Positions 28,348-30,722 of a DNA stretch of 34,713 bases are shown here, in pieces. The position numbers were made by a program, and so were the translations under genes. The stretch is from the NCBI GenBank assembly GCA_022794055.1, contig JAAWEA010000035.1:1-34713 (forward strand), read 5' to 3'. The notes under the pieces are model-generated. The model was given only the letters and a program-made list of their open reading frames with translations. It was not told the origin of the DNA and searched no databases. The number at the start of each line of letters is the position of its first letter. The stretch's first letter is position 1. This stretch comes from Clostridia bacterium. Its GTDB lineage: Bacteria; Bacillota; Clostridia; TANB77; CAG-508.

Positions 28348-28374
28348 TTAGCAGTTACTCATGAAGAGTGCTAA
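28348..28374. promoter_or_regulatory. CIRCE element (HrcA operator), degenerate left arm
   Basis: TTAGCAGTT-N9-GAGTGCTAA versus consensus TTAGCACTC-N9-GAGTGCTAA, upstream of groES. Confidence 0.9.
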
Positions 28375-28408: not shown

Positions 28409-28705
<297 letters not shown>

Positions 28706-28721: not shown

Positions 28722-28812
28722 AGAGGGAAAAAGGGTCCAGGACAAAAAATCCCTCTTGTATAAATATAATTTAGTAAAGAGGGATTTTTTGTCCTGGACC
28801 CTTTTTCCCTCT
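28722..28812. repeat. Perfect 36-bp inverted repeat between groES and groEL
   Basis: Left arm 28722-28757 AGAGGGAAAAAGGGTCCAGGACAAAAAATCCCTCTT is the exact reverse complement of right arm 28777-28812; 19-nt loop. Confidence 0.97.
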
Positions 28813-28826
28813 TTGGGAGGAGATAA

Positions 28827-30467
<1,641 letters not shown>

Positions 30468-30543: not shown

Positions 30544-30617
<74 letters not shown>

Positions 30618-30648: not shown

Positions 30649-30722
<74 letters not shown>

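Follow-up and report, generated by a model that had tools for sequence, protein, structure and literature searches.

A REPIN-like palindromic dimer between groES and groEL of a gut Clostridia lineage and its probable Y1/HUH nuclease partner

Introduction

REPIN or BIME elements accompanied by a RAYT (TnpA-REP) are exemplified by those of Pseudomonas fluorescens SBW25 (PMC3116915) and by the E. coli REPtron. Further points of comparison are the TIRtrons with their TIRYT enzymes (PMC3733652), the TnpA-Y1 subclass 2.1 (PMC6006769), and the IS200/IS605 elements IS608 and ISDra2. Our literature search on REP/RAYT systems in Clostridia and on TIRYTs returned TIRYT papers only, subscription RAYT-classification papers lying outside its scope.

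The repeat described here, which lies between groES and groEL, appears by analogy to work like a REPIN with its RAYT. As in REPINs and BIMEs, two palindromic units are inverted around a spacer that also pairs, copies are extragenic and multiple, a Y1/HUH gene is bracketed by units, and changes across the hairpin are compensatory. The repeat does not have the GT[AG]G (GTAG/GTGG) tetranucleotide foot and is therefore not a canonical GTAG REP. It also differs from REPINs and BIMEs in numbering tens of copies rather than hundreds, in its host, a small-genome, AT-rich gut Clostridia lineage, in its longer enzyme (250 aa), which has an additional helical region at the C terminus, and in its copy-specific outer stems.

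The Y1 enzyme with a C-terminal extension and self-complementary flanking TIRs recalls TIRYT and subclass 2.1 systems, and TIRs that can form families and dimers are a further likeness to TIRYTs. TIRs of related genomes contain GGGGAC, and GGGGACAG/GGGGACAC fit the published TIRYT motif GGGGWSAS, whereas the core of the repeat studied here, GGGTCCAGGAC (unit GGGTCCAG), lies two mismatches from it; strictly, then, this core is not the published TIRYT motif, which the repeats of relatives do fit. A phylogenomic survey reported no REP-like sequences near genes of subclass 2.1 (PMC6006769), a probably related group; in contrast, many genomes of the genus studied here have dispersed dimers. With IS200/IS605 elements the system shares the Y1/HUH nuclease fold and hairpin DNA recognised by the enzyme, but the groES-groEL element is a hairpin dimer without a gene of its own. 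The findings extend REPIN-type populations to a small-genome clade of gut Clostridia, in which GTAG is replaced by a core of GGGAC type.

Results and Discussion

A perfect palindrome fills the groES-groEL spacer

The window is the whole 34,713-nt stretch of DNA that was analysed, from a Clostridia bacterium. The 124 nt that separate the groES stop codon at 28705 from the groEL ATG at 28830 are filled by the repeat. Features of this region are as follows, both genes having been identified from sequence:

28424..28705, plus strand: groES, 93 aa, upstream gene (open reading frame and translation)
28722..28757, plus strand: left repeat unit (REP/TIR-like), with foot stem AGAGGGA/TCCCTCT and core GGGTCCAGGAC at 28733-28743
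28758..28776, no strand: spacer or loop of 19 nt, GTATAAATATAATTTAGTA
28777..28812, minus strand: right repeat unit, an exact inverted copy of the left unit
28815..28822, plus strand: groEL Shine-Dalgarno GGGAGGAG, unpaired in the fold and 2 nt 3' of the hairpin
28830..30467, plus strand: groEL, 545 aa, downstream gene (open reading frame and translation)

The initial annotation had described a perfect 36-bp inverted repeat that ends just before the groEL Shine-Dalgarno, and both points hold: the arms (28722-28757 and 28777-28812) match as reverse complements at 36/36 positions around the 19-nt loop, with a gap of 2 nt to the Shine-Dalgarno. The nested palindromes that it listed are likewise present (AGAGGGA...TCCCTCT in both arms, GTCC-A-GGAC at 28735-28743), the nesting arising because the repeat unit is itself a palindrome. 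Its proposal that the sequence can fold as one long hairpin agrees with the predicted RNA fold, a single hairpin of -69.1 kcal/mol (z = -12; 0/200 shuffles equally stable). Perfect arms elsewhere in the window reach 18 nt at most, and those in 50 shuffles do not exceed 15 nt. A chance palindrome is ruled out by the fold z-score and shuffles together with these arm lengths. Against Rfam, no RNA family matched at the repeat; the only matches were two tRNAs.

The repeat belongs to a dispersed family

The host genome comprises 1.62 Mb in 93 contigs and is 90.5% complete; repeat copies were gathered from it region by region. Searched with the groES-groEL repeat, many of its contigs showed strong matches. 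The core GGGTCCAGGAC was matched 33 times in forward and 32 times in reverse orientation, with no match for a reversed-pattern control, and the palindromic unit of ~35 nt is found at 47 places (about 45 copies), mainly as inverted pairs. Its build is AGAGGGA-AAAA-GGGTCCAGGAC-AAAAAA-TCCCTCT, and the two members of a pair are separated by a variable spacer. The initial annotation had proposed a comparison with the host genome and relatives; by that comparison the repeat is multi-copy in its host, and so not single-copy. The exact core had no match in the genome_contigs and viral_contigs collections, which possibly do not include this genome.

Pair statistics were taken from 32 scored complete inverted pairs. 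Doublets predominate over a handful of solo units (C64:17343, C68:13914, C81:8163, C27:26674, C87:29855 and C10:260), the unit feet are AGAGGGA or variants of it, and partial copies of the unit lie at contig ends. All but two of the scored pairs (30/32) lie outside open reading frames, the other two falling within short, doubtful ones. The dimer starts no more than 30 nt from a stop codon in 26/32 cases; the neighbouring genes are convergent for 11 of the 32 and divergent for only 2. No direct target duplications were seen by eye in the printed copies, whose flanks are instead inverted and copy-specific.

A Y1/HUH nuclease gene is bracketed by the repeat

The host genome carries two Y1_Tnp genes, on contigs C39 and C64. 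The features of the second are:

C64:17379-18128: Y1/HUH nuclease open reading frame, 250 aa
C64:17763-18089: Y1 domain of this nuclease

This gene is flanked by a solo unit (C64:17343, 9 nt from its stop codon) and by an upstream dimer (C64:18235-18291). Its product contains HxH (H60, H62) and Y120---N124-P125, which are invariant in 17 relatives; the Y---NP motif is the one named for class 2 TnpA-Y1 (PMC6006769). The best NCBIfam match is the REP-associated tyrosine transposase model NF047646, at 62.3 bits against a cut-off of 80, and all 17 relatives match the same model at E<=0.001. In a structure search with the AlphaFold model (pLDDT 89.5), PDB 4ER8 ranks first (E 5.8e-6), a complex of the REP-associated tyrosine transposase TnpA(REP) with a REP hairpin; the IS608/ISDra2 transposases come next. 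TIRYT and subclass 2.1 enzymes are characterised by a C-terminal HTH (Bac_DnaA_C, HTH_23 or HTH_28); the model here has C-terminal helices, and in the profile search HTH_17 is a sub-threshold match at 15 bits and other HTH matches are weak. The C39 gene was rejected as the mover: it is an IS200-type tnpA that matches IS200 rather than REP_Tyr_transpos, and the surrounding stretch that was read contains no copy of the repeat.

The C64 nuclease is the one such bracketed gene found so far, and likely fits as the mover of the groES-groEL repeat family. Since dispersed inverted pairs occur together with a bracketed TnpA(REP)-like nuclease, the repeat can be described as a REPIN-like dimer with a likely cognate transposase. 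We consider it very probable that the groES-groEL repeat is a dimer of the family that brackets the C64 nuclease and that it was moved or copied by this Y1 enzyme. In single-stranded DNA, for example on the lagging-strand template, a unit pair would fold into a hairpin; the enzyme would recognise the unit, nick through Tyr120, and move or copy the dimer to extragenic sites, mainly just 3' of stop codons, with insertions that would include operon interiors such as groES-groEL. Cleavage of the unit is an inferred step, and the repeat is likely mobile. The suggestion in the initial annotation that the palindrome is a mobile repeat gains strong support from the ~45 dispersed copies, the REP-type transposase gene between two of them, and the empty sites in relatives described below.

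Related enzyme-repeat systems are widespread in the genus

Homologues of the C64 nuclease are encoded in 168/213 genomes of the same genus, many of which hold two to five. Most of the 30 homologue loci fetched are flanked by inverted repeats that likewise consist of a foot stem and a core of GGGAC type. A second set comprised 56 related Y1 loci in named MAGs, almost exclusively of uncultured gut Clostridia. Of these loci, 38 have flanking inverted repeats, all of which contain GGGAC, and shuffled flanks gave 0. Dispersed dimers of the form GGGGAC-N20-50-GTCCCC are present in 149/213 same-genus genomes, a single genome carrying as many as 43; the reversed control gave hardly any. Each of these 149 genomes apparently has its own repeat family.

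The host genome stands apart in having GGGTCCAGGAC in place of GGGGAC. The exact 16-mer AAGGGTCCAGGACAAA occurs 58 times in it and is absent from the 212 other genomes of the genus. The closest enzyme, that of G176, is 52% identical and has GGGGCCAGGC on both sides; this sequence has 24 occurrences in G176 and none in the host genome. The unit of G018 is CGGGATTTGGGGACGGGTC. The repeat families are species-specific, and most species of the clade seem to run an enzyme-repeat family of their own. The genus offers about 200 natural replicates for repeat spread, turnover at fixed sites and the upkeep of perfect arms.

Two copies related to the host family (a GGGTCCAGCAC variant) were observed in G020, at C2:31953-32058 and C3:58772-58815. 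This genome, which is only 79% complete, gave no enzyme match at E<=1e-10; copies can thus be present where no enzyme gene is detected. GGGGAC-type repeats also flank a related Y1 enzyme gene on a Candidatus Endomicrobium contig (L302), so the enzyme-repeat system may reach beyond Clostridia.

Orthologous sites are empty or occupied by other families

The groES-groEL spacer is minimal (22-48 nt) and free of a hairpin in G061, G176, G183, G122, G072, G043, G092, G098, G113 and G028. It is occupied by a hairpin in G197 and G020 (GGGACGYCCC types), in G206, G208, G096 and G207 (GGGGACGGGGC), in G018 (GGGGACGGGTC), and in G048; other relatives have longer spacers with no clear dimer. The spacer of G202 (L139) contains a long AT-rich inverted repeat without a GGGAC core, possibly a different element.

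Further sites of host dimers were picked before inspection and reached via their flanking genes. At nrdD-nrdG, a different family is present in each of G197, G018, G069 and G176, and no dimer is present in G020, G061 or G202; the queA-tgt site is occupied in G018 and G020 (both gene pairs are named from our reading of translated ends). Overall, strict dimers of relatives' own families were found at 10/32 orthologous host-dimer sites vs 2/65 other intergenic regions (p = 2e-4), which is evidence for shared sites and not proof of a mechanism, because the background, the intergenic regions of groESL loci, is small and unmatched for gene orientation. For 9/14 site occupants tested, the best match among the enzyme flanks of ten genomes was to those of the occupant's own genome. 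Occupants that do not match the repeats of the fetched enzyme may belong to other enzymes of those genomes.

Arms are nearly identical within copies and extend into outer stems

The two arms of a copy differ at 9 of 1056 positions, and arms of different copies differ at 1.3 per 33. Beyond the shared unit, the flanks pair perfectly for 9.2 nt on average, vs 2.2 nt after shuffling between copies (p <= 5e-5). In 12 dimers from relatives, outer pairing extends for 12.6 vs 1.5 nt; one of the 12, a nested dimer, has a 40-nt match that includes a second unit. In host dimers, as in L173, L205 and L169 of relatives, these outer stems are copy-specific perfect inverted repeats, often with a polypurine 5' side. 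Copying of the dimer as one unit could explain the likeness of arms within copies but does not explain the paired outer flanks. Template switching at hairpins makes and repairs such arms (PMC8794818), and we prefer the as yet unproven reading that hairpin-templated, arm-to-arm copying may lie behind both the perfect arms and the outer stems. A competing account would derive the outer stems from insertion into a pre-existing hairpin. When empty sites were used to ask which outer flank is original, their AT-rich spacers did not align. The recent origin or active maintenance that the initial annotation had read from the perfect arms fits these data, since arms are closer within a copy than between copies and the copy-specific outer stems point to arm-to-arm copying.

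Alternative explanations

The turnover at orthologous sites could potentially also be explained by rewriting in place, in which an ancestral occupant of the site was later converted, species by species, to the family now current, so that position is inherited and sequence replaced. The enrichment of relatives' own-family dimers at host-dimer sites, the usual best match of occupants to the repeats that flank the resident enzyme, and the signs of templated copying in the arms are in its favour. However, independent insertion into shared permissive sites accounts for the pattern just as well, and minimal spacers, such as those of 22-26 nt in groESL, leave no other position in any case. Some relatives are also empty, and a few occupants mismatch the repeats of the fetched enzyme; we regard rewriting as unlikely. 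Rather unlikely, too, is the fuller version for dimers of gut Clostridia, in which groES-groEL and nrdD-nrdG would stay occupied over speciation while the resident enzyme's family replaces the sequence, and arms would grow outward by hairpin-templated copying. If true, position and pairing would be heritable and sequence would not. Hairpins of several unrelated families at groES-groEL in many species of the genus, together with the strong fold and the free Shine-Dalgarno just downstream, are also what might be expected of a selected cis-regulatory RNA that, as the initial annotation had suggested, would set the GroES:GroEL ratio as an attenuator, RNase III site or stability hairpin. This is quite improbable, as several relatives have no hairpin there, the unit also lies at dozens of places unrelated to groESL, turnover of the same kind is seen at nrdD-nrdG and queA-tgt, and a search for intrinsic terminators (GC-rich hairpin and U-tract) at the repeat found 0 sites, the sequence 3' of the hairpin being TTGGGAGG. 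The hairpin could still alter message stability. Since the hairpin is present in some relatives and absent from others, we see any influence on groEL expression as a possible by-product, not as what explains the repeat at this site.

A short, multi-copy, terminally palindromic sequence without coding capacity would also fit a MITE mobilised by a DDE-type transposase from another locus, but the Y1/HUH gene bracketed by the unit and the inverted, copy-specific flanks seen in place of direct duplications in the copies inspected make this origin very improbable. An assembly or binning artefact might be suspected in a 93-contig assembly with several copies at contig ends. The dimers, however, measure only ~75-150 nt, the same architecture recurs in other genomes, and about 30 other complete pairs with different, unique flanks lie inside other contigs, so an artefact is hardly conceivable. 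Movement or copying by the Y1 enzyme is the reading that we retain.

Neighbouring features of the groESL locus

A CIRCE-like element was observed upstream of groES (window 28348-28374), with a perfect right half, GAGTGCTAA, and a degenerate left half; its sequence suggests HrcA control of groES. Just downstream of groEL are two tandem tRNA-Gly(TCC) genes (window 30544-30617 and 30649-30722).
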